From: Snowella sp.
GTDB taxonomy: Bacteria; Cyanobacteriota; Cyanobacteriia; Cyanobacteriales; Microcystaceae
Assembly: GCA_003249095.1 (NCBI GenBank)
Contig: QBMS01000027.1
Span: 1-39,114 of the forward strand
Length of the DNA stretch: 39,114 nt
Reading direction: 5' to 3'
Part shown: positions 2,864 through 14,765 of the stretch, in pieces
Numbering within the stretch: position 1 is the stretch's first letter
Layout: the number at the start of each line of letters is the position of its first letter
Translations under genes and position numbers: made by a program
The notes under the pieces: model-generated
What the model was told of the DNA's origin: nothing
Databases searched by the model: none
The model's input: the letters and a program-made list of their open reading frames with translations, nothing else

Positions 2864-4303
2864 ATGACTATGAAAAATCTGAGTGGCAATATTAAATCTC
2901 TGCGTAATTTTATGCGGAAAGATCCTGGTGTGTCGGGGGATGGTCAACGGATTGAGCAGTTGGGATGGTTGCTATTTTTAAAAATCCTAGATGCGAGTGA
3001 TAAGGAATTAGAGTTACTCAAGGATGATTTTGTGTCGGTGGTTCCCGATCGCCTACGTTGGGAAAATTGGGCGGCGGATAAGGAGGGGATGACGGGGGAC
3101 AAGTTACGACTTTTTATTGATGAAGAGTTGTTTCCTACGTTGCGAAATCTCGACATAAGTACAGGTAATCAACGGGCGGCGATCGTGCGGGAGATTTTTG
3201 AAGGTACGAACAATTACATGAAAAATGGGACGATTATTCGGCAGGTGTTGAATAGTCTCAATGAGATTGATTTTGAAAATTCGGAAGATCGACATTTATT
3301 TGGGGATATTTACGAGACCATTTTGCGGGAACTTCAGACGGCGGGGGCCTATGGGGAGTTTTATACACCCCGCGCTTTGACGGAGTTTATGACGGAAATG
3401 GTGAATCCGCAGTTAGGCGAGAAGGTGCTTGATCCTGCTTGTGGGACGGGGGGCTTTTTGACCTGTGCGATTAATCATTTGCGATCGCAGGGTTTAGATC
3501 AGGTTAGGGATCTGGAAACCTTGGAAAAGACGATTAAGGGGATGGAGTTTAAGCCATTGCCGTTTATGTTGGCGGTGACGAATTTGTTTTTGCATGAGAT
3601 TGAGATTCCCAATATTGAATATACCGATAGTCTGAATCGGGAATATACTTCGATTCGGGAAGCGGATCGGGTGGATGTGATTCTGGCTAATCCGCCATTT
3701 GGGGCTTCGGTGACGGATGGGGTTCAGGATAATTTTCCGTTGAGTTATCGAACGACGGAAAGTGCGGATTTGTTTTTGTTGTTGATGGTGCGCTATTTGC
3801 ATGAGGGCGGACGGGCGGCGATCGTGTTGCCTGATGGTTCGTTGACGGGGGATGGGGTGAAGGCGCGAATCCGTCAGCATTTGTTGGAGTCTTGCAATCT
3901 CCATACGATTGTGCGTTTACCTAATTCGGTGTTTCAACCCTATGCTTCGGTGGCGACTAATCTGTTATTTTTTACAAAGGGTAAGCGGACTGAGGATATT
4001 TGGTATTGGGAGCATCGTTTGCCCGATGGGGTGAAGGCGTATTCTAAGACAAAGCCGATTGTTAAGGGTGAGTTTCAGTCGTTGCGCGATTGGTGGAATA
4101 ATCGTGAGGAGGGTGAGCAGGCTTGGCGAGTGAGTTTTGCGGAGTTAGAGAAAAATGGATTTAATTTGGATGTGAAAAATCCTCATGTGCTAGAGGTGGA
4201 ACAGGGTTATAGTTCGGTTGAGTTGTTGGGGATGTTGCATGATTCTTTTAAAAAGAGTGATGATTTATTAGATATGTTAAAAAAACAATTAGCACAGGGT
4301 TAA
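2864..4303 (+). CDS. hsdM: Type I restriction-modification DNA methyltransferase subunit HsdM
   Basis: This 479-residue adenine-N6 methyltransferase has the HsdM N-terminal helical domain (about residues 1-140) followed by the class I catalytic domain. The SAM-binding motif DPACGTGGFL starts at residue 190, and the catalytic motif NPPFG starts at residue 276. The length is normal for HsdM and the frame is uninterrupted, so the methylase looks functional. It would combine with HsdS (5024-6361) to methylate a bipartite target. The upstream restriction subunit is truncated, so the pair may now act as a methylation-only system unless another hsdR supplies the motor. The normal HsdM-HsdS junction is interrupted here by a RAYT element. 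Confidence 0.95.
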   Translation: MTMKNLSGNIKSLRNFMRKDPGVSGDGQRIEQLGWLLFLKILDASDKELELLKDDFVSVVPDRLRWENWAADKEGMTGDKLRLFIDEELFPTLRNLDISTGNQRAAIVREIFEGTNNYMKNGTIIRQVLNSLNEIDFENSEDRHLFGDIYETILRELQTAGAYGEFYTPRALTEFMTEMVNPQLGEKVLDPACGTGGFLTCAINHLRSQGLDQVRDLETLEKTIKGMEFKPLPFMLAVTNLFLHEIEIPNIEYTDSLNREYTSIREADRVDVILANPPFGASVTDGVQDNFPLSYRTTESADLFLLLMVRYLHEGGRAAIVLPDGSLTGDGVKARIRQHLLESCNLHTIVRLPNSVFQPYASVATNLLFFTKGKRTEDIWYWEHRLPDGVKAYSKTKPIVKGEFQSLRDWWNNREEGEQAWRVSFAELEKNGFNLDVKNPHVLEVEQGYSSVELLGMLHDSFKKSDDLLDMLKKQLAQG

Positions 4304-4335
4304 TTTGTAGGGGTAATTCATGAATTACCCCTACC
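4302..4335. repeat. REP-like palindrome, left copy flanking the RAYT gene
   Basis: Bases 4307-4334 are a perfect 28-base palindrome (arm GTAGGGGTAATTCA and its reverse complement). They are embedded in a 34-base stretch that recurs exactly at 4959-4992. The repeat starts at the last two bases of the hsdM stop codon. Palindromes flanking a Y1 transposase are the usual substrate of that enzyme. Confidence 0.9.
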
Positions 4336-4381: not shown

Positions 4382-4951
4382 ATGACATTATTTAATCATC
4401 GTAATCGTCGATCTATTCGGCTAAAAGGTTTTGATTATTCTTCTGATGGAGCTTATTTTTTAACAATTTGTGTACAAAATCGTGAATGTTTATTTGGAGA
4501 AATTCAAAAAGAAAAAATGATTTTAAATGATTATGGCAAAATCGTTAGAGAGATTTGGGAAGATTTGCTAACTACTATTGTAGATATAGATTTGGATGAA
4601 TATGTTATTATGCCTAATCATTTTCATGCAATTTTAGTAATTGATAAGTCTCTGGAGTCAACAAATTTTTATGGATCATTAAATGTCAATAATGATAAGG
4701 AACGTAGAAAAATGATTTTATCAAAGGTCGTAGGAAAATTTAAAATGTTAACGGCTAAAGCAATTAATCAAATGCGTGGCAATGAAGGTAAATTTTGGCA
4801 ACGTAATTATTATGAAACAGTGATTCGTAGTGAAGAAGATTTAAATAGAATCCGAGAATACATTATTAATAATCCGATGCAATGGGAATTGGATGATAAT
4901 CATCCCAATTATATGTTAACCAATTGTCGTAGGGGTTATGGTCAATCGTAG
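4382..4951 (+). CDS. REP-associated tyrosine transposase (RAYT, Y1/HUH family)
   Basis: This 189-residue protein has the Y1-transposase signature. The HUH pair is His80-Phe-His82 in MPNHFHAI. The likely nucleophile is the Tyr143-Tyr144 pair in RNYYETVIR, followed by the usual REYIINNPMQW helix. Known RAYTs nick single-stranded REP palindromes and are thought to spread them. Perfect 28-base palindromes lie 47 bases before the start and 12 bases after the stop, so gene and palindromes form one element of about 690 bases. It sits between hsdM and hsdS in the same orientation without breaking either gene. Codon use is more AT-rich than in hsdM, consistent with later arrival. The catalytic residues look intact. 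Confidence 0.9.
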   Translation: MTLFNHRNRRSIRLKGFDYSSDGAYFLTICVQNRECLFGEIQKEKMILNDYGKIVREIWEDLLTTIVDIDLDEYVIMPNHFHAILVIDKSLESTNFYGSLNVNNDKERRKMILSKVVGKFKMLTAKAINQMRGNEGKFWQRNYYETVIRSEEDLNRIREYIINNPMQWELDDNHPNYMLTNCRRGYGQS

Positions 4952-4958
4952 GAATTAC

Positions 4959-4992
4959 AATTTGTAGGGGTAATTCATGAATTACCCCTACC
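4959..4992. repeat. REP-like palindrome, right copy flanking the RAYT gene
   Basis: This is an exact repeat of 4302-4335, with the 28-base palindrome at 4964-4991. It begins 7 bases after the RAYT stop and ends 31 bases before hsdS. A partial similar stretch (GTAGGGGTTA) lies just upstream, inside the last codons of the transposase. Confidence 0.9.
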
Positions 4993-5023
4993 ATGATATT
5001 AATAAACTCAACTGGAATAAATA

Positions 5024-6361
5024 ATGAAAAATTATCCTAAAAAAACAATTGGTGAACTTTGCAATATTATCAAAGGTGAAACAGGAATTGCTAGTGCGAT
5101 TGCAGGTGAATATACCCTAGTTACAACAGGTAAAGATCGCAAAACATCGGCTACTTACCAATTTGATGCTAAAGCTGTTTGCCTTCCATTAATATCATCC
5201 AGTGGACATGGAAAAAAAAGTCTTAATTATATCCATTATCAAGAAGGAAAATTTGCACTTGGGACAATTTTAGCAGCAATTATTCCAAAAAATGATAATG
5301 AGATTTCTGCGGCTTTTTTACATCAATACTTATTATTCTATAAAGATGTCAAAATAGTTCCTTTAATGAGAGGTGCTGCAAATGTATCTCTTGCAGTTAA
5401 AGATGTCGCTAAAATTGAAATTCCTTTGCCTCCAATTAATGAGCAGAAAGATTTTATTATTATTTTTAATAAACTTCAAGAATTTAAAAATAAGTTAATT
5501 TTTGAGTTTGACAAGCAAGAAAAATACGTTTCTCAGTTGAAACAGACGATTTTGCAGGAGGCGATCGCGGGTCAACTCACGGCAGAATGGCGCACCCAAA
5601 ACCCAATGCAAAAAGGCAATCCAGATACCGATGCCGCCGCACTCCTCGCTAAAATCAAAACCGAAAAACAACAGTTAATCGCTGATGGCAAACTCAAAAA
5701 AGAAAAACCTCTCGCTGAAATCGCGATCGATGAAATTCAATTTTCTATTCCTGATAGTTGGGTTTGGTGTCGTTTGGGAGAAGTTATAAAATTAGCAGAA
5801 GCAGGGAAAAGCTTTTTATGTAAAGATGGTGAAACTCGTAATCGAGATTGGGGAATCATCAAAACGAGTGCAATTACTTCTGGAATTTTTTTTGAATCAG
5901 AAAACAAACTTTATTCAGAATCTATACCAGAAGAAATTAAATATAAAATTGAAATTGGAGATTTGATTTTTTGTCGTGCTAGTGGTAGTAAAGGTTTAGC
6001 TGGTTTATGTTGTTTAGTAGAATCTTTAAGCTTAAATTTATTGTTAAGTGACAAAACTATTCGTGTAAAGCTAAGTGATTTAGTTTTGCCTGAGATTGTT
6101 AATCTTTACAATAAATCTGATTCCAGCAGAAAGTATCGAATATCACTCTCTACACAGAAAAGTACATCAATGAATAATGTAACTCGTGGTGAATTGCTGG
6201 GCGAACCTTTTCCCCTTTCTCCTCTTGCCGAACAAAAAGCAATAGTTGAAAAAGTCGATCGCCTAATGAACATCATCGACCAACTAGAACAACAAATCAA
6301 ACACCGCAAACAACTCGCCGAAGACCTCATGCAAACCGTCCTCCGCGAAGCCTTTGAATGA
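5024..6361 (+). CDS. hsdS: Type I restriction-modification specificity subunit HsdS
   Basis: This 445-residue subunit has the standard two-repeat layout. TRD1 spans about residues 1-145 and ends in IPLPPINEQ. A central conserved helix follows (about 146-235, including QTILQEAIAGQLT). TRD2 spans about 245-400 and ends in PLSPLAEQ, and a C-terminal conserved helix closes the protein (about 401-445). Each TRD reads one half of a bipartite DNA target, and the helices set the spacing. TRD1 looks AT-rich and foreign relative to the central helix, as expected from TRD swapping. The last 105 bases have a second, diverged copy at 7070-7174. It lies 32 bases after the right RAYT palindrome, so its expression may depend on read-through across that element. 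Confidence 0.93.
   Translation: MKNYPKKTIGELCNIIKGETGIASAIAGEYTLVTTGKDRKTSATYQFDAKAVCLPLISSSGHGKKSLNYIHYQEGKFALGTILAAIIPKNDNEISAAFLHQYLLFYKDVKIVPLMRGAANVSLAVKDVAKIEIPLPPINEQKDFIIIFNKLQEFKNKLIFEFDKQEKYVSQLKQTILQEAIAGQLTAEWRTQNPMQKGNPDTDAAALLAKIKTEKQQLIADGKLKKEKPLAEIAIDEIQFSIPDSWVWCRLGEVIKLAEAGKSFLCKDGETRNRDWGIIKTSAITSGIFFESENKLYSESIPEEIKYKIEIGDLIFCRASGSKGLAGLCCLVESLSLNLLLSDKTIRVKLSDLVLPEIVNLYNKSDSSRKYRISLSTQKSTSMNNVTRGELLGEPFPLSPLAEQKAIVEKVDRLMNIIDQLEQQIKHRKQLAEDLMQTVLREAFE
6257..6361 (+). repeat. hsdS 3'-end repeat, copy 1
   Basis: The last 105 bases of hsdS, starting at GATCGC, recur at 7070-7174 with about nine mismatches by eye. Apart from the stop codon (TGA versus TAA), every difference is synonymous. 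The two copies enclose the second VapBC module. Confidence 0.9.
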
Positions 6362-6403
6362 TCCGCTACACTTAAAATTTAGTCCCCACAAACAAAGCAA
6401 ACT

Positions 6404-6676
6404 ATGGACATCACCATTCATCTAGAAGACGAACAAGCCCAAAAACTAGAATACATTCAACAACAAACAAACCAAGACCCAGCAACATTACTAAATCGTA
6501 CCCTTACCCAAGCGATCGACACCTATTATCAACAAATCCAAGCATCACAATCTGATGCGATCGCACAACTTAGACAAAGCAAATTTATCGGGTGTTTTAG
6601 CGGCGACCCAGACCTAGCCACTAATTCAGAAGAGCGTTTCCAAGCAATCATGAATGAAAAATATGATCCTCGCTGA
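6404..6676 (+). CDS. VapB-type antitoxin, ribbon-helix-helix-like
   Basis: This encodes 90 residues. The N-terminus (MDITIHLEDEQAQKLEYIQ) followed by an amphipathic helix matches the short strand plus helices of CopG/RHH antitoxins that bind DNA as dimers. The C-terminus has GCFSGDPDLATNSEE, resembling GLFAGSPNLAMQAEE in the other antitoxin at 2179-2436. The two antitoxins thus share a toxin-binding tail on different DNA-binding heads. It begins 42 bases after hsdS, and its stop lies 23 bases inside the toxin gene. Confidence 0.75.
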   Translation: MDITIHLEDEQAQKLEYIQQQTNQDPATLLNRTLTQAIDTYYQQIQASQSDAIAQLRQSKFIGCFSGDPDLATNSEERFQAIMNEKYDPR

Positions 6677-7079
6677 CACAGGATTTTTTATCGCCTTGGG
6701 TAATAATCGCGATCGCGACCATAAACGCGCCATACAAATCATCTCCACCCTAAACGAACCTCTGATTACCACCTATCCCGTAATCACAGAGACGAGCTAT
6801 CTCTTAGCACGAGATGCAGGATTAATCGTGCAGTTTGCATTCCTGTCCGAAGTTGCCAATGGCATATTTCCCGTATTTGATTTCCAAAAACATCACATCA
6901 CTCGCATGGTCGAACTAATGAGACGCTATGCCAACCTACCAATGGATTTTGCCGATGCCTCTTTAGTTGTATTAGCCGAACATCTAGGACATGGGAGAAT
7001 TTTGACTAGCGATCGGCGAGATTTTAATATTTATCGATGGAATAATACCAATCTATTTGAGAATTTACTGATCGCTTAA
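6654..7079 (+). CDS. vapC: VapC-type PIN-domain toxin ribonuclease
   Basis: A 141-residue PIN-domain ribonuclease toxin. The acidic metal ligands are visible: Asp in ADTGFF, Glu in ITETSYL, Asp in DFADAS and Asp in TSDRRDF. It overlaps its antitoxin by 23 bases, the usual arrangement for coupled translation. Its final codons (encoding LIA and the stop) lie inside the duplicated hsdS tail that starts at 7070. The present C-terminus was therefore created, or at least set, by that junction. It is homologous to the toxin at 2424-2837, with the same order of motifs, but clearly diverged. Confidence 0.85.
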   Translation: MKNMILADTGFFIALGNNRDRDHKRAIQIISTLNEPLITTYPVITETSYLLARDAGLIVQFAFLSEVANGIFPVFDFQKHHITRMVELMRRYANLPMDFADASLVVLAEHLGHGRILTSDRRDFNIYRWNNTNLFENLLIA

Positions 7080-7174
7080 TGAACATCATCGATCAACTAG
7101 AACAACAAATCAAACACCGCAAACAACTCGCCGAAGATCTCATGCAAACCGTTTTAAGGGAAGCCTTTGAATAA
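7070..7174 (+). pseudogene. Remnant of a second hsdS 3' end
   Basis: In frame from GATCGC at 7070, this stretch encodes DRLM then a 31-residue tail ending in REAFE. It is identical at protein level to the end of HsdS at 6257-6361, but about nine bases differ, almost all at synonymous positions. The rest of the gene is absent. The left edge lies within the last codons of the preceding vapC. Synonymous-only divergence means both copies were long under selection as parts of working genes, so this is not a fresh tandem copy. Confidence 0.85.
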
Positions 7175-7289
7175 CGTCTATCTTCTTTCAATGATGAAAT
7201 TTAAACCGCGATCGCATTTGAGATTCAGCGTTAAAGTTTAAGAAGCGATCGCTTTGATTAAAATTGAAATGAGGAGACGCGATCGCAGA
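7175..7289. other. Intergenic HIP1 cluster
   Basis: Three GCGATCGC octamers at 7208, 7245 and 7279 fall within 79 bases between the island and the next gene. HIP1 is a genome-wide cyanobacterial repeat. It marks host-like sequence at the right boundary of the accessory region. Confidence 0.7.
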
Positions 7290-7688
7290 TTAAGAAATCG
7301 GAAGCCAACCAAAAAGTTTAGCCGCACCCGCGATCAGAGCCACAATCAGAGCCGCTAGAATGCCTCTATTGAGAAATTCTTGATTTTCCAGACGTTTACC
7401 GATACCTGTTACTTTTTCGTCAAGAGTTTTGCCTTGTCCTGAGAGTTTTTCATCAAGCGTTTTAACTTGTCCTGAAAGTTTTTCATCAAGATTTTTAACT
7501 TGTCCTGAAAATTTTTCATCAAGAGCTTTAACTTGTCCTGAAAGTTTTTCATCAAGAGCTTTAATCTCTCCCTTGATTTCTACCTGGGATACTTTGAGGT
7601 CAGTTAAGTCCTCTCGAATATCCTTAAGGTCTTTTTGGATACTGACTAAAATATCTTCTAGTTTAATTTCAACGGTAGGGTTCGGCAT
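7290..7688 (-). CDS. Small tail-anchored hendecad coiled-coil protein
   Basis: This 132-residue protein has a predicted coiled coil through residues 1-105 and one C-terminal membrane helix (about 109-128, GILAALIVALIAGAAKLFGW). The middle consists of about five copies of an 11-residue unit such as VKALDEKLSGQ, encoded by 33-base repeats. An 11-residue period gives a nearly straight, right-handed coil. The overall plan, coil plus C-terminal anchor, resembles small cyanobacterial proteins annotated only as hypothetical or hemolysin XhlA-like. The function is unknown; a membrane-tethered spacer or oligomeriser is the simplest guess. The repeat number is likely to vary between strains by slippage. 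Confidence 0.7.
   Translation of the reverse strand: MPNPTVEIKLEDILVSIQKDLKDIREDLTDLKVSQVEIKGEIKALDEKLSGQVKALDEKFSGQVKNLDEKLSGQVKTLDEKLSGQGKTLDEKVTGIGKRLENQEFLNRGILAALIVALIAGAAKLFGWLPIS
7441..7539. repeat. 33-base tandem repeats inside the coiled-coil gene
   Basis: Three full consecutive 33-base units start at 7441, 7474 and 7507, with diverged partial units on both sides (about 7412-7440 and 7540-7566). They differ at only a few positions and preserve the reading frame, adding 11 residues per unit. Confidence 0.9.
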
Positions 7689-7839
7689 AGGTTACGCTTT
7701 CGTTGGATTTGTGAATAGATGGGGAGAAGTTAGCCGATTGTCTCTTTATGCTTTCTAGGATAAGGGATTGTTAGACGCGATCGCTTAAAAAAAAGGGGGA
7801 GAATTGGAGGGCGATCGCAAGCGGAGAAATATCATCATT

Positions 7840-7882
7840 AAAAAAAGTCAGAAGAAAGCTTCAATTGCTTAACTCCTGACTT
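7840..7882 (-). terminator. Rho-independent terminator of the FKBP gene
   Basis: Read on the minus strand, AAGTCAG (7882-7876) pairs with CTGACTT (7851-7845), followed directly by a T run. It lies 22 bases past the stop codon of the isomerase gene. Confidence 0.65.
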
Positions 7883-7903
7883 CTTTTGAGCAAAAAACTA
7901 AAT

Positions 7904-8419
7904 TTAATTAATGCCTAATAATTCCACATCAAATAGAAGCGTCGCATTACCAGGAATCAGTCCCCCTGCTCCCCGTTCTCCGTAACCCAAATCGGGAGGA
8001 ATAATTAAGGTACGTTTACCGCCAACTTTCATGGTCGCAACGCCTTCATCCCAGCCTTTAATGACTTGACCGACACCGATTTTAAAAGAAAAAGGTTGCC
8101 CTCTATCAACGGAACTGTCAAACTTTTTACCATCGGTCAAGGTTCCTGTGTAGTGGACTTTGACGGTTTGTCCTTTCGTGGGACTCGCTCCCGTGCCAAC
8201 TTCCGTATCAATATACTTTAATCCTGAAGGCGTGGTGATGGCATTGTCTAAATTCATGGCGATAGTTTCCTGGCTAATGGGTGATTGGGCGATGCTCGGT
8301 GAGGACACTTGTAAATTGGCCGCGATCGCAGGGGAGGTATTGGGTTTAAAAATAGCAGAAACAATCAATAAACCACAAAAAAAGAGTACAACAGAAAAAC
8401 TAATTAAAACTTCTTTCAT
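7904..8419 (-). CDS. Secreted FKBP-type peptidyl-prolyl cis-trans isomerase
   Basis: A 171-residue protein with an N-terminal signal peptide or anchor (about residues 4-34, hydrophobic core then SPAIAA) and a C-terminal FKBP domain (about 62-171). The FKBP landmarks are present: [39 protein letters not shown] and LGYG. Such enzymes speed proline isomerisation during folding, here in the periplasm or thylakoid lumen. A GAGGAA ribosome site precedes the ATG and a clear terminator follows the gene, so it is probably a single-gene unit. Orthologues in other cyanobacteria have the same signal plus FKBP layout. Confidence 0.92.
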
Positions 8420-9858: not shown

Positions 9859-9958
9859 GATTACCCAAATTTGAGTATGGAAGAGTTTAGCCACAGGCAT
9901 TCATCTGTATCTCTCCAGTATTTTCTCATTTTCACTATTTTACGGACGATTTAACCCT

Positions 9959-10789
9959 ATGAAAAATCGAATTCTTCTTTCTTTATTAGCTTTTCTTTGC
10001 CTTACGACCTTTTCTAGCCATGCCCAAGCCGAGACCGTTCTCGAAAAAGTAGCTCGTACAGGAGAATTAAAAGCGGGTTCTCGCGCCGATACGGTTCCCT
10101 TTAGCTATACTAATTCTCAAGGAAAATTAGAAGGATATTCGGTTGATTTGTTGTCTTTAATACACAAAAAATTAGAAGAAAAATTAAACAAAAAAATCAA
10201 GCTTAATTTAGCAACCGTGACGGTAAATGATCGTTTTAGAGAAGTCAAGAATGGCAATCTAGATATTGTTTGTGAAGCGACAACGATTACCCAAGAACGT
10301 CTAGAAAGGGTTGATTTTTCTATTCCTTTTTTTATTACGGGGGCGCAATTTTTGATCAAAAAATCTAATGATAAAAATTTTGATGTGAATGGAACCCTTA
10401 AAGATCAAGCGATCGCCTACATTCCTAATACAACTACATTTGATATTATTCCCCAAATCTATCCCACTGCAAAATGGTTAGAAGTCAAAAACCGTCAAGA
10501 AGGGATTACGAAATTAGCCAAGGGCGACGTAAGCGCAGTAGTGAGTGATGGCATTCTCTTGATTGGAGAATTAGTCAAAGATGGCAATGATCCCCGTCAA
10601 TTTATCCTCACGCCCCGACAACCGATTACAACGGAATTATATGGCTGTATTTTACCGAAAAATAATGGTGAATGGAAACAAATAGTCGATGCCGCGATTG
10701 CCAGTCCTGCCAACCATGATCTTCAAGAAGAATGGTTTAATATAGAGAAGAGTAAGTTTCCCTATCTGGTACGGACTGATGCCCGTTAA
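9959..10789 (+). CDS. Periplasmic solute-binding protein, amino-acid type (family 3)
   Basis: This 276-residue protein has a classic signal peptide (residues 1-24, ending SSHAQA). It is followed by a bacterial family 3 solute-binding fold with VARTGELKAGSR, FSYTNSQGKLEGYSVDL and ITQERLERVDFSIPF segments. Proteins of this type capture polar amino acids such as glutamate, aspartate or glutamine in the periplasm and deliver them to an ABC permease. No permease or ATPase gene is next to it, so it either feeds a transporter encoded elsewhere or acts as a sensor-like binder. The length is normal and the gene looks intact. It is transcribed alone, with the next gene 121 bases away. Confidence 0.85.
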   Translation: MKNRILLSLLAFLCLTTFSSHAQAETVLEKVARTGELKAGSRADTVPFSYTNSQGKLEGYSVDLLSLIHKKLEEKLNKKIKLNLATVTVNDRFREVKNGNLDIVCEATTITQERLERVDFSIPFFITGAQFLIKKSNDKNFDVNGTLKDQAIAYIPNTTTFDIIPQIYPTAKWLEVKNRQEGITKLAKGDVSAVVSDGILLIGELVKDGNDPRQFILTPRQPITTELYGCILPKNNGEWKQIVDAAIASPANHDLQEEWFNIEKSKFPYLVRTDAR

Positions 10790-10910: not shown

Positions 10911-13900
10911 ATGTCTTTTGTTGGCTTACATATTCACAGTGATTACAGTCTTCTTGATGGTGCTTCCCAGTTACCGAGTCTGATTGATCGTGCCGTAGAA
11001 CTCGGAATGCCCGCGATCGCCTTAACGGATCATGGAGTCATGTATGGCGCGATCGAAATGATTAAACTCTGTCGCAATAAACCGATTAAGCCGATTATTG
11101 GCAACGAAATGTATGTCATCAATGGCAACATCGAAGAAAACAAAAAAAATCGTCGCTTTCATCAGGTCGTTTTAGCTAAAAATACGAAAGGTTATAAAAA
11201 TTTAGTCAAGTTAACAACGATTTCTAGTCTCAAAGGAATCCAAGGAAAAGGCATTTTTTCTAGACCGTGTATTAACAAAGAATTACTCACCCAATATCAT
11301 GAAGACTTAATCGTAACCAGTGCTTGTCTAGGGGGAGAAGTTCCCCAAGCAATTCTCAAAGGAGATCTAGCACACGCCAGGGAAGTCGCTAAATGGTATC
11401 AGGATTTATTTGGAGAAGATTATTATTTAGAAATTCAAGATCATGGTTCGATTGAAGATAGAATTGTCAATGTTCAAATCGTTAAAATTGCCAAAGAGTT
11501 AGGCATTAAACTCATTGCGACGAATGACTCCCATTTTATTTCTTGTTACGACGTAGAAGCCCATGATGCGCTACTTTGTATTCAAACAGGAAAGCTCATT
11601 ACCGAAGACAAAAGACTCCGTTACAGTGGCACAGAATATCTTAAATCCGCCGACGAAATGCGGCAACTATTTCGGGATCATTTACCCAATGAAATTATCG
11701 AAGAAGCGATTAACAATACCCTCGAAGTTGCTGAAAAAATAGAACCCTATAACATATTAGGAGAACCCCGTATTCCTAATTATCCCGTTCCTCCGAATCA
11801 TACGCCTGATACCTATGTGGAAGAAATTTCTAGACAGGGTTTGCTTGAAAGATTAAAATGTCGTTCCTTTGAGGAAGTTGAACCTGTTTATCAAGAACGT
11901 CTGGAATACGAATTAAAAATGTTACAAAGAATGGGTTTTTCGACCTATTTTTTAGTTGTATGGGACTACATTAAATATGCTAGAGATAACAATATTGCTG
12001 TCGGCCCTGGTAGAGGATCCGCGGCCGGTTCTTTGGTTGCCTATTGTTTAAGAATTACCAATATTGATCCCGTTCATCATGGCTTACTCTTTGAACGTTT
12101 TCTCAATCCTGAAAGAAAGTCCATGCCTGACGTTGATACGGATTTTTGTATTGATCGGCGCGATGACATGATTAAATACGTGACGGAGAAATATGGAGAA
12201 GCCAATGTTGCTCAGATTATTACTTTTAACCGATTAACGTCTAAATCTGTCTTAAAAGATGTGGCCAGGGTATTAGGAATTCCCTACGCTCAGTCTGACA
12301 AAATGGCTAAACTGATTCCTGTTTCACGGGGAAAACCCACCAAATTAAAGGTAATGATTTCGGCAGAAACCCCAGAGCCTGAATTTAAAAATCATTATGA
12401 TAATGATCCCGAAGTCAGACGTTGGCTTGATATGGCCATTCGGATTGAAGGAACCAATAAAACCTTTGGCGTTCATGCGGCGGGGGTGGTAATTTCCTCG
12501 GAACCTTTAGATGAAATTGTTCCTCTCCAAAAAAATAATGATGGCTCAGTCATTACTCAATATTTTATGGAAGATATCGAGTCCTTGGGTTTATTGAAAA
12601 TGGACTTTTTAGGATTAAAAAATTTAACCACCTTACAACGAGCAACGGATTTAATTAAACAAAATAAGGGAGAAATTATTGACCTGGATGAGTTACCATT
12701 AGGTGAACGTAAAGCCTTAGAGATTATGGCTAAGGGATCAATCAAAAAATTACCAGCCGATGTCAAGAAGACCCATAGCTTATTAGAAGATGGGGATTTG
12801 GAAGGAATTTTTCAGTTAGAATCATCGGGAATGCGCCAAATTGTTCGAGATTTAAAGCCCTCTAGTATTGAAGATATTTCTTCTATTTTGGCTCTCTATC
12901 GGCCTGGCCCGTTGGATGCGGGGTTAATTCCTAAGTTTATCGATCGCAAACATGGCAGAGAGGCGATCGCCTATGAACATCCTTTATTAGAAACAATTTT
13001 AAATGAAACCTACGGGGTTTTATGTTTGCCTGGGGGAACTTTAATTAATCAACCTGATGGTAAACAGATTCCTATTGAAAACATTCAGGCAGGAGACACG
13101 GTTTTAACCTCTAATGGAAAAAAAGTTTGGCCAGCCAAAGTCGCCAAGCAATGGTCAAGTGGGAAAAAGGAAATTGTCAAAATTACCCTTTCTAGTGGGA
13201 CAGTTATCTATTCAGGAAAAAATCATCGTTTTTTAACACCTGAAGGAGATTGTTTAGCAAGGGAATTAAAAGTTGGCGAAGAGGGAATGAAGAATGCCCA
13301 TATCTATAGTTCTGCTCTCTACGAAAAGTGGCCACAGTCAAGCAATAGCAAACAATTAAAACCGAATCAAGCCTATCTTTTAGGATTGTTAATCGGTGAT
13401 GGTAATTTGGTTTCCTCAACTCCTAATATTGCCTGTAAAACTGAAAAAACGGCGGATTGGGTTTCTCAGTTATTATTCCAAACCTGGGGCGGAGAACCTA
13501 AATATTATTTTCATACTCGTTGCTGGTATGCTTACTCAAAATTTAATACGGCTCCGAATCCAACGCCTTTAACTCAGTTTTTGGATCAAATTTATGGAAG
13601 CAGGAATTGGAAAGTAAAATCAACCGTTAAACATTTACCATCAGAAATAGTTAATTATCAAGAGAACGATCGCTTAGATTTATTAAAAGGGCTTTGGGAT
13701 AGTGATGGTTGTTATAGTGCGCGTTTAGTTTATTTTCGGAGTAGCTCTGCCCAGTTACTTCAACAAGTTGCTTGGTTATTGGGTAGTTTAAAAATTAATT
13801 ATTCTGTGGGAAACAATTATGTTTATGTCAGCGATCGCAGTCGTTTTAAAGCACTTTTAGGGGAACCTCTACTACCTGATAAAATCTACGAAATAGAGGA

Positions 13901-14765
13901 AAATTATTTACCGATTATTACCCAGGAATTTGCCGAACAATTAGAAACAGCGATCATCCAGACAGATCGAGAAACCCGTAAAACTATTAAACGATCTTTG
14001 CAAAAAGCAGTTTTATTTAAACCAACGAATTCCAGTTATAAAGAAAACCTAGAAAATTGGCACGCGATTTATCAGAATAATTATCAACAAACCTATCTCG
14101 AAGATGCACGATTAGTTCATGTTGTTTCCTTGGAAGATGCGGGCGAAGCGGATTGTTTTGATTTAGAAATGGCAGATCAATCTTCTCCCTATTTTTTGGC
14201 GGAGGGGATTGTCACCCATAACTGTTATCAAGAGCAAATTATGAAAATGGCTCAAGATTTGGCAGGATATTCCCTCGGAGAAGCAGACTTATTACGGCGG
14301 GCAATGGGGAAAAAGAAAGCCTCGGAAATGCAGAAACATCGGGAAAAATTTATTGATGGGGCGACTAAAAATGGCGTGACAAGTAAAGTCTCTGAAAGCC
14401 TTTTTGATCAGATGGTAAATTTTGCGGAATATTGTTTAAGTTATGACAGTTTAATTCTCACCGTTGAATATGGAGCTTTACCCATTGGCAAAATTGCTGA
14501 GGAAGAAATTGACTGTACCGTTTATAGTGTCGATCGCAACGGTTTTATTTATACCCAGGCGATCGCCCAATGGCATCATCGGGGGTCTCAAGAAGTCTTT
14601 GAATACAAGTTAGAAAATGGTTCTGTGATTCGCGCGACGGCTGATCATAAATTTATGACCCAGGATGGACAAATGTTAGCGATTAACCAGATCTTTGAAC
14701 AGGGTCTAGAATTACGTCAATTAGAAACCAACCGCGATGACTTTCCGTCAATTTTCCGTCAATAG
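10911..14765 (+). CDS. dnaE: DNA polymerase III alpha subunit, N-terminal half, with internal intein and split intein N-fragment
   Basis: This 1284-residue precursor contains three parts. Extein residues 1-704 and 1105-1174 give a 774-residue N-terminal DnaE half. Residues 705-1104 are an internal intein. Residues 1175-1284 are the N-part of a split intein. The PHP domain starts with [12 protein letters not shown], and polymerase catalytic aspartates lie in PDVDTDF (Asp407, Asp409). The 774-residue extein equals the known split point in Synechocystis DnaE, so the gene is a normal cyanobacterial dnaE-N. The other half (intein C-part plus about 420 residues of DnaE) must be encoded elsewhere, and trans-splicing joins them. 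Replicative polymerase therefore requires one cis- and one trans-splicing event. The stop overlaps the convergent cbiO stop by 7 bases. Confidence 0.96.
13023..14222 (+). mobile_element. Internal DnaE intein with LAGLIDADG homing endonuclease
   Basis: The 400-residue intein occupies precursor residues 705-1104, between extein YGVL and CYQEQIM in the polymerase finger region. It begins with Cys ([13 protein letters not shown]), has a block-B histidine in SGKNHRFLT, and ends in THN followed by an extein Cys. Two LAGLIDADG motifs are visible, LLGLLIGDG at 823-831 and [10 protein letters not shown] at 924-933, both keeping the catalytic acidic residue. The endonuclease may therefore still be active and allow homing into empty dnaE alleles. 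The usual block-B threonine appears to be replaced. Confidence 0.93.
14433..14762 (+). other. Split DnaE intein, N-terminal fragment
   Basis: The last 110 residues (from Cys1175, [20 protein letters not shown]) match the cyanobacterial DnaE-N split intein. They include the block-B TADHKFMT histidine and the typical [11 protein letters not shown] tail. The fragment is slightly longer than the 102 residues of the Nostoc punctiforme version. It ends at the stop with no C-extein, confirming a trans-splicing arrangement. Confidence 0.95.

Follow-up and report, generated by a model that had tools for sequence, protein, structure and literature searches.

The 39,114-nt stretch of Snowella sp. DNA analysed here (the window; contig QBMS01000027.1) carries a type I restriction-modification (RM) locus in which the end of the specificity gene, hsdS, occurs twice, on the two sides of a VapBC-like toxin-antitoxin pair. 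The hsdS gene (5024-6361, plus strand, as are hsdR, hsdM and the vapB and vapC described next) encodes a type I specificity subunit of 445 amino acids (Pfam Methylase_S, 3e-17; PADLOC Specificity_I, 3e-52). Its last 105 nt, ending in TGA (copy 1, 6257-6361), are repeated on the same strand at 7070-7174, where they end in TAA (copy 2), right behind the second PIN-toxin gene of the locus. The approximately 0.7 kb between the tails holds vapB and vapC only, which overlap by 23 nt. The first (6404-6676) encodes a 90-amino-acid protein with no Pfam match, whose antitoxin role was assigned from its position and conservation; the second (6654-7079) encodes a PIN-domain toxin of 141 amino acids (Pfam PIN, 2.7e-12), and a toxin of this kind behind a small overlapping antitoxin gene is the VapBC architecture.

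The two copies of the hsdS end

A preliminary description of this DNA, made from the letters alone, had pointed out the 105-base repeat and about nine differences in it, synonymous apart from the stop codons, and had attributed the second copy to another working hsdS. All of this was borne out. A repeat finder aligned 6257-6359 with 7070-7172 at 92% identity, and blastn of copy 1 against all downstream DNA of the window gave a single match of 103 nt (E 1e-39). In the organism's own 4.6-Mb genome the only other match of such length was the hsdS copy itself, all others spanning less than 40 nt. The copies differ at 9 of 105 positions: eight lie in the 34 codons and are all silent, two doubly substituted Leu/Arg codons included, and the ninth is the TGA/TAA change. 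Random substitution of eight sites would give 5.8 amino-acid changes on average, and zero changes were obtained in none of 5,000 simulations. Since all eight coding differences are silent, the tails are taken to be those of two alleles, and the second is not a relic that drifted from the local gene; the pattern indicates that it derives from another functional hsdS and that the two tails had each evolved as part of a coding sequence before coming together.

The insert was compared with vapBC relatives from the Pseudanabaena family, in which 5 of 38 genomes gave long matches at 74-80% DNA identity (query 6240-7290). The VapB protein was 72-83% identical across all 90 residues in four of these genomes and matched partially in a fifth. 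The nucleotide similarity starts at 6364 (genome G674) or 6386 (G680, G684 and G686), and in G679 only in the second half of vapB; in all five it stops at 7062-7072, where the second hsdS tail begins. Homologous vapBCs elsewhere match the window, then, only from about 6364 to about 7072. The left junction (6359-6364) has the hsdS TGA at the joint, and a CGCTACA box common to the vapBC relatives starts, as judged by eye, 2-4 nt behind it. The relatives of VapC end in FENLLLEQN, FENLLIEEV or FENLLVLE and the window protein in FENLLIA, 2-3 residues short (the vapC of G680 is frameshifted). The gene in the window appears to be truncated by the junction, with its stop codon supplied by the hsdS tail, and the shortened toxin may or may not be active. 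Because the similarity to the relatives is confined between the tails and VapC ends short, the insert reads as a single vapBC unit with an hsdS 3' end joined to it on either side. No hsdS was seen next to the vapBC of G674 and G680, the two of the five relatives whose neighbouring frames were inspected by eye.

The right junction, CTGATCGC, lies at 7067-7075, and the vapC ends available for comparison with it are those of the relatives at 74-80% DNA identity. The left edge of the second copy had been placed in the last codons of vapC at a GATCGC; its position, 7070, is indeed within vapC, while the GATCGC turned out to be part of the hsdS copy.

Behind the second tail, the segment 7177-7252 recurs in another contig of the same genome (78%), and relatives of a gene at 7904-8419, which looks FKBP-like by eye, are present in 45 of 50 genomes of the family, a count of presence and not of synteny. 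This flank looks like resident host chromosome.

Mosaic structure of hsdS

An alignment of the tail, used to scan named species genomes, gave nine related loci, four in the Pseudanabaena group (L107-L110) and five in genomes titled Nostoc, Cuspidothrix, Desmonostoc or Anabaena (three of these five being L070-L072). L109, although titled Oscillatoriales, is placed in the Pseudanabaena group because its match has the coordinates of that in G587, a genome of the same genus as lw0831. In L112 and L115 the 3' flank is limited to 1.1 and 0.2 kb. When hsdS was compared with them in 60-nt bins, its first half, up to about 5553, resembled Pseudanabaena L107 and Desmonostoc L113: in the bins covering 5014-5553 the identity was 0.73-0.92 to L107 and 0.32-0.67 to L108. 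In the central conserved region (5554-5673) L107, L108 and L110 matched about equally. In the bins covering 5674-6213 the identity was 0.92-1.00 to L108 and 0.28-0.78 to L107, and from about 5794 through the second target recognition domain (TRD2) the gene matched L108 only. The hsdS of the window is therefore, by its identity profile, composed of a TRD1 half of one type and a TRD2 half and tail of another, and the central region, where the identity switches, is the probable zone of a homologous crossover.

Locus L108 belongs to Pseudanabaena sp. lw0831, which from about 5554 matches TRD2, tail, TGA, spacer and vapB of the window at 92-93%. Its hsdS has TRD2 in common with the window (5471-6359, 92%) and ends in TAG. 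Behind it follow a 0.7-kb stretch with two small opposite-strand genes and an orphan hsdS tail, about 53 nt long and with TGA as its stop, which is joined to the window's spacer and a broken vapB (6307-6621, 93% over 315 nt). The 17 codons of the orphan tail differ by 1 nt from copy 1 and by 3 nt from the hsdS of lw0831 itself. Among the nine loci this second VapB was detected in lw0831 only. The stop codon of copy 1 differs from that of seven of the eight nearest relatives with an intact hsdS end, which use TAG or TAA; the eighth (L112) has TGA. Because lw0831 carries the tail with TGA, the spacer and vapB, the left junction is judged to have existed outside the lineage of the window, although in lw0831 itself it has been displaced behind a new tail; copy 1 would thus have arrived together with the insert.

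Other stray hsdS ends were met in these searches. L110 has two further tail fragments downstream of its hsdS, in which amino-acid changes are as frequent as random substitution would give; about 230 nt, made up of tail and palindrome, stand there twice in tandem (6150-6610, by eye). A solitary 72-nt hsdS tail in G691, a genome of the Pseudanabaena family (L174, about 9952-10025, minus strand) is the only match to the RM proteins of the window in 18 kb. Genomes G084 (L067/L073) and G106 (L068/L074) contain a 49-amino-acid match to the hsdS tail in a frame of 73 amino acids, with no other HsdS match in the stretch; these are possible orphan tails. Candidates in short frames were met in G314, G304 and G105 (L175-L177) as well.

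The mosaic bears on an explanation by insertion with a long target duplication, in which vapBC entered a single hsdS, about 100 bp of the gene end were duplicated and the copies then diverged in place. The size of the repeat agrees with this, vapBC fitting between two copies of a target of about 103 nt at 92% identity, and insertion of RM systems with duplications of variable length, about 100 bp, is reported (PMC3874152, PMC3031569; the original work, Nobusato, Uchiyama, Ohashi and Kobayashi 2000, is cited via these and PMC1643837). The known cases, as these articles present them, resemble the locus in that an insert tied to RM genes is bracketed by direct repeats of about 100 bp. They differ from it since there RM genes were inserted, while here the insert is a toxin-antitoxin module and has an RM gene as target, and since the repeats of the window look like different alleles, not copies of one target. 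A relic left by duplication would drift freely, yet eight out of eight coding differences are silent, which points to two alleles, and hsdS is a mosaic whose 3' half and left junction are common to another genus. We hold an origin by target duplication to be improbable.

Displaced gene ends in other cyanobacteria

The survey comprised 100 hsdS loci, 81 of them hand-picked among the Methylase_S matches listed, 18 taken from the search with TRD2 and one from a further search. Hand-picking mostly passed over frames that were very short or, through fusion, very long, and matches at the start of a contig; no locus was chosen for repeats, and 98 had enough 3' flank. The loci came from the top of score lists and the frequencies are rough. 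A displaced end was counted when blastn aligned 25 nt or more of the last 150 nt of a gene, with E no higher than 1e-5, to same-strand DNA in the 5 kb behind it. Tandem paralogs were left out (two among the other genes of the loci, two in random segments, none among RM genes). HsdM and HsdR were classed by blastp to two references at 1e-8, a class that includes unusual 'HsdM' frames of 208 (L320), 742 and 804 amino acids (L275, L307).

Displaced 3' ends were found for 5 of 98 hsdS, 10 of 71 HsdM and 1 of 24 HsdR genes, altogether 16 of 193 RM genes in 15 loci of 14 genomes. The controls gave 2 of 205 for other genes in the same loci and 2 of 197 for genes in 20 arbitrary 20-kb segments. The rate was thus 8.3% in type I RM genes against 1.0% in others (4/402), about eightfold (Fisher P 1.2e-5; hsdS alone, P 0.017). 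The reversed hsdS sequences gave no match, and the opposite strand gave one at E at most 1e-5 (L276) and a weaker one (L303). The difference persisted when the four tandem paralogs were restored to the control (8/402, P 5e-4), when displaced tails starting within 150 nt were dropped (11/193 versus 3/402, P 5e-4) and when one possibly unrelated match, that of the L255 hsdS within a DUF1016 nuclease frame, was dropped (P 3e-5). Five more loci with weaker matches (E 1e-5 to 1e-3) were left uncounted.

The phenomenon is not confined to RM genes, because a control gene also has a displaced tail. In a random segment (L337, about 4425-8275) a gene of 553 amino acids is followed about 2.1 kb downstream by a displaced tail of 127 nt, which carries 4 amino-acid changes against 14.1 expected.

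A preference for 3' ends is not established. In a matched run displaced gene starts were found upstream of 3 of 142 RM genes and displaced tails behind 17 of 196 (P 0.017), but this signal rests on hsdM (tails 11/72, starts 0/22, P 0.06), and for hsdS alone displaced starts were not clearly rarer (tails 5/98, starts 3/100, P 0.5). Thirteen of the 16 displaced RM tails end between -26 and +6 from the stop codon, and those of L255 (hsdM), L305 and L328 extend well into the spacer, so that joining exactly at the stop codon appears as a tendency only. In L278 the last tail abuts the start of hsdS.

The silent-change analysis was applied to 20 RM relics, and in nine of them amino-acid changes were below the random level at P <0.05, uncorrected (three in L252, L278 +1234, two in L280, L304, L320 and L328). 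The other eleven (L241 and L327, about 0.07-0.08; L278 +407, 0.06; L247, L255 twice, L275, L305, L307, which shows no difference, L314 and L332) did not reach this level. Some of the relics, not all, look allelic.

Named toxin-antitoxin genes stood between the copies in 3 of the 15 loci: HicA, with DUF559, in L247; ParD/ParE together with a nucleotidyltransferase and a DUF6883-DUF4926 pair in L280, which has two displaced hsdM tails; and two PIN genes among the three displaced hsdS tails of L252, the last of which is followed by a Y1 transposase. In three more (L314, L320, L328) a PIN gene stood just beyond the displaced tail. A DUF6883-DUF4926 pair also lies between tails in L278, and a junction common to the pairs of L278 and L280 was looked for and not found. 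An HNH gene lies between the copies in L241, and small frames do so in L275, L327 and L320, with DUF2281 in L320 and no family in the other two. In L304, L305, L307 and L332 no forward frame of at least 60 amino acids was present between the copies. The check proposed earlier, a look for other loci with vapBC between two hsdS tails, brought up the nested arrangement of lw0831 and, in L252, hsdS tails that have PIN modules between them.

The inserts and the edges of the tails speak to the idea, raised in the preliminary description, of a cassette that enters the 3' end of hsdS and restores it, in the manner of integrative elements that supply their target gene with a new end. The arrangement itself held: hsdS is whole, a tail stands beside the insert and the displaced tail lies outside it, a topology identical to that left by a site-specific element, and the nested tails of lw0831 and the three displaced tails of L252 look like serial insertion. 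The discrete mobile cassette was not supported. The insert of the window, 0.7 kb, has only vapB and vapC (the other loci were not searched systematically for recombinases), the left edges of displaced tails vary from about 25 to 150 nt before the stop, which argues against a fixed core site, and the modules inserted at different loci are unrelated. Moreover, the imported DNA reaches back through TRD2 to about 5554. A site-specific cassette is thus very unlikely.

Five of the 16 displaced tails begin at most 150 nt from their gene, with little or no insert, and were counted (L255 hsdM +25, L314 +64, L307 +69, L328 +90, L305 +142). Such close tails would suit an origin in cis, from an arrangement hsdS1-vapBC-hsdS2 of which most of hsdS2 was deleted and vapC became fused to its last 105 nt; this would likewise yield two functional alleles and a junction inside vapC. 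It requires, however, an earlier duplication and a deletion ending in vapC. A full second hsdS at this position, named beforehand as the sign of simple decay after tandem duplication, was seen in none of the nine nearest loci, the two with short 3' flanks included. We consider the tandem origin unlikely.

Other features of the locus and the window

The hsdM gene of the locus (2864-4303; Pfam N6_Mtase, 5.7e-70) is 87-89% identical in DNA to those of L107-L110. Of hsdR only the 3' part is present (370-1344), named by eye and by its similarity to a gene of L070; the similarity to L107, L108 and L110 starts at 370, and the preceding 369 nt are closed in all forward frames. The restriction subunit may therefore be broken, and the RM system as seen in the window may be without restriction.

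A first vapBC-like pair is situated between hsdR and hsdM (2179-2863). Its VapB is kept in lw0831 (86% amino-acid identity), where the stretch matching 2437-2823, most of the first vapC, is missing. An open reading frame of the window, ORF1615 (175 amino acids, no Pfam match), has two tandem relatives upstream of hsdM in L110 (1755-3039). Between hsdM and hsdS there is a Y1 (IS200-like) transposase gene (4382-4951), flanked by two identical 34-nt palindromic repeats (4302-4335 and 4959-4992); L107, L108 and L110 have palindromes resembling these, and Y1 genes were also seen at L112 and behind the array of tails in L252. Downstream, within a small gene on the minus strand (7290-7688), a direct repeat of 33-nt period occurs four times (7387-7571), and a DNA polymerase III alpha-like frame (10911-14765) has apparent intein-like insertions, recognised by eye only.

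Origin of the second tail

A locus with tails of two alleles, vapBC as its sole insert, a mosaic hsdS and a left junction common to a Pseudanabaena is in our judgement, with a probability of about 0.65, the scar of a horizontal recombination event and not the product of a mobile cassette with its own machinery. The donor would have been a type I RM locus that already had vapBC directly behind hsdS, in the order tail, TGA, spacer, vapB. From it a block of about 1.45 kb, made up of the hsdS TRD2, the tail and vapBC, would have entered the lineage of the window. Its left end would have been joined by homologous recombination within the conserved central part of the resident hsdS (about 5554-5673), by which TRD2 was swapped, and its right end, in the last codons of vapC, through short or no homology (GAT/GATCGC) in an illegitimate joint to the resident hsdS at the codons Asp-Arg-Leu-Met-Asn. 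As a result hsdS would be whole with the donor tail, vapBC would have been gained and the resident tail (7070-7174) stranded as a relic of the former gene. A single import, homologous at its left joint and illegitimate at its right, is favoured because, judged by the mosaic, the imported block would extend from the central region as far as the last codons of vapC. We infer that this occurred in a single step and in this direction, by a RecA and microhomology route, and that the relic is without function.

Several results weigh against this reading. The vapB of lw0831 is broken and its right side is gone, so that lw0831 is uninformative on whether the donor already had a second tail. The argument from silent changes, valid for the window, fails for the orphan tails of L108 and L110 and for 11 of the 20 relics of the survey. 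The empty site suggested earlier as a check, a strain in which hsdS is directly followed by the 7070-7174 version without vapBC, was not found in the single genome of the genus, 50 of the family and 388 of the order. A donor with intact TRD2 and vapBC was not found either; the best-scoring protein match to TRD2 in the 388 genomes of the order was 32% identical, and the near-identical TRD2 of L108 surfaced only through the search with the tail. Finally, no displaced copies of the window's own HsdR, first VapC and HsdM tails, or of its HsdM and HsdS heads, were detected. As to other sources, viral contigs contained no relative of the tail, and four plasmid records gave short matches at 71-77% to an hsdS or to PIN genes.

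The route proposed has a counterpart in homology-facilitated illegitimate recombination, one flank of the import lying in long homology at the hsdS switch (5554-5673). According to the original papers on this process, long foreign DNA can reportedly be joined at its other end through 3-10 bp. In both cases RecA would anchor the incoming DNA at the homology while the remainder is joined illegitimately. The process is known from laboratory transformation and is on record with very short integrated segments of 3-10 nt (PMC6382021), whereas here it is deduced for a natural locus with an RM gene as the anchor. Shuffling of TRDs by recombination at the conserved repeats of hsdS is reported as well (PMC3077401); the exchange proposed for the window is alike in swapping a TRD through a conserved region, and unlike in that a neighbouring module came with it and a second tail stayed behind. 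In the cyanobacterium Synechocystis 6803 toxin-antitoxin modules are reported to cluster with type I RM genes (PMC4963859). That account gives the clustering only, while the displaced tails described here would record how a module was added. Among the papers listed on toxin-antitoxin modules with hsd genes, none described stranded hsd tails in its title or the opening lines of its abstract, which does not establish their absence from print.

Taken as a single event, the exchange at this locus is ordinary recombination, and it suggests that a new TRD2 specificity and a toxin-antitoxin module can be acquired in one event. What is noteworthy is how much more often stranded tails occur at RM genes than at others. 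A wider proposal is possible, and we advance it tentatively, as something we would not yet expect to hold: the genes of type I RM operons in cyanobacteria may serve as standing homology anchors, through which small modules, some of them toxin-antitoxin pairs, come to be added time and again right behind hsdM or hsdS without an integrase, each addition bringing a gene tail along and stranding the old one. If this were true, stranded tails such as those of L252, L280 and the nested tails of lw0831 would form a readable record of past acquisitions. Displaced gene ends are a direct physical trace of the joints and of the sequence in which the events took place, countable in any genome, and they bear on the question of how toxin-antitoxin modules that lack a transposase move and why they gather at restriction systems.

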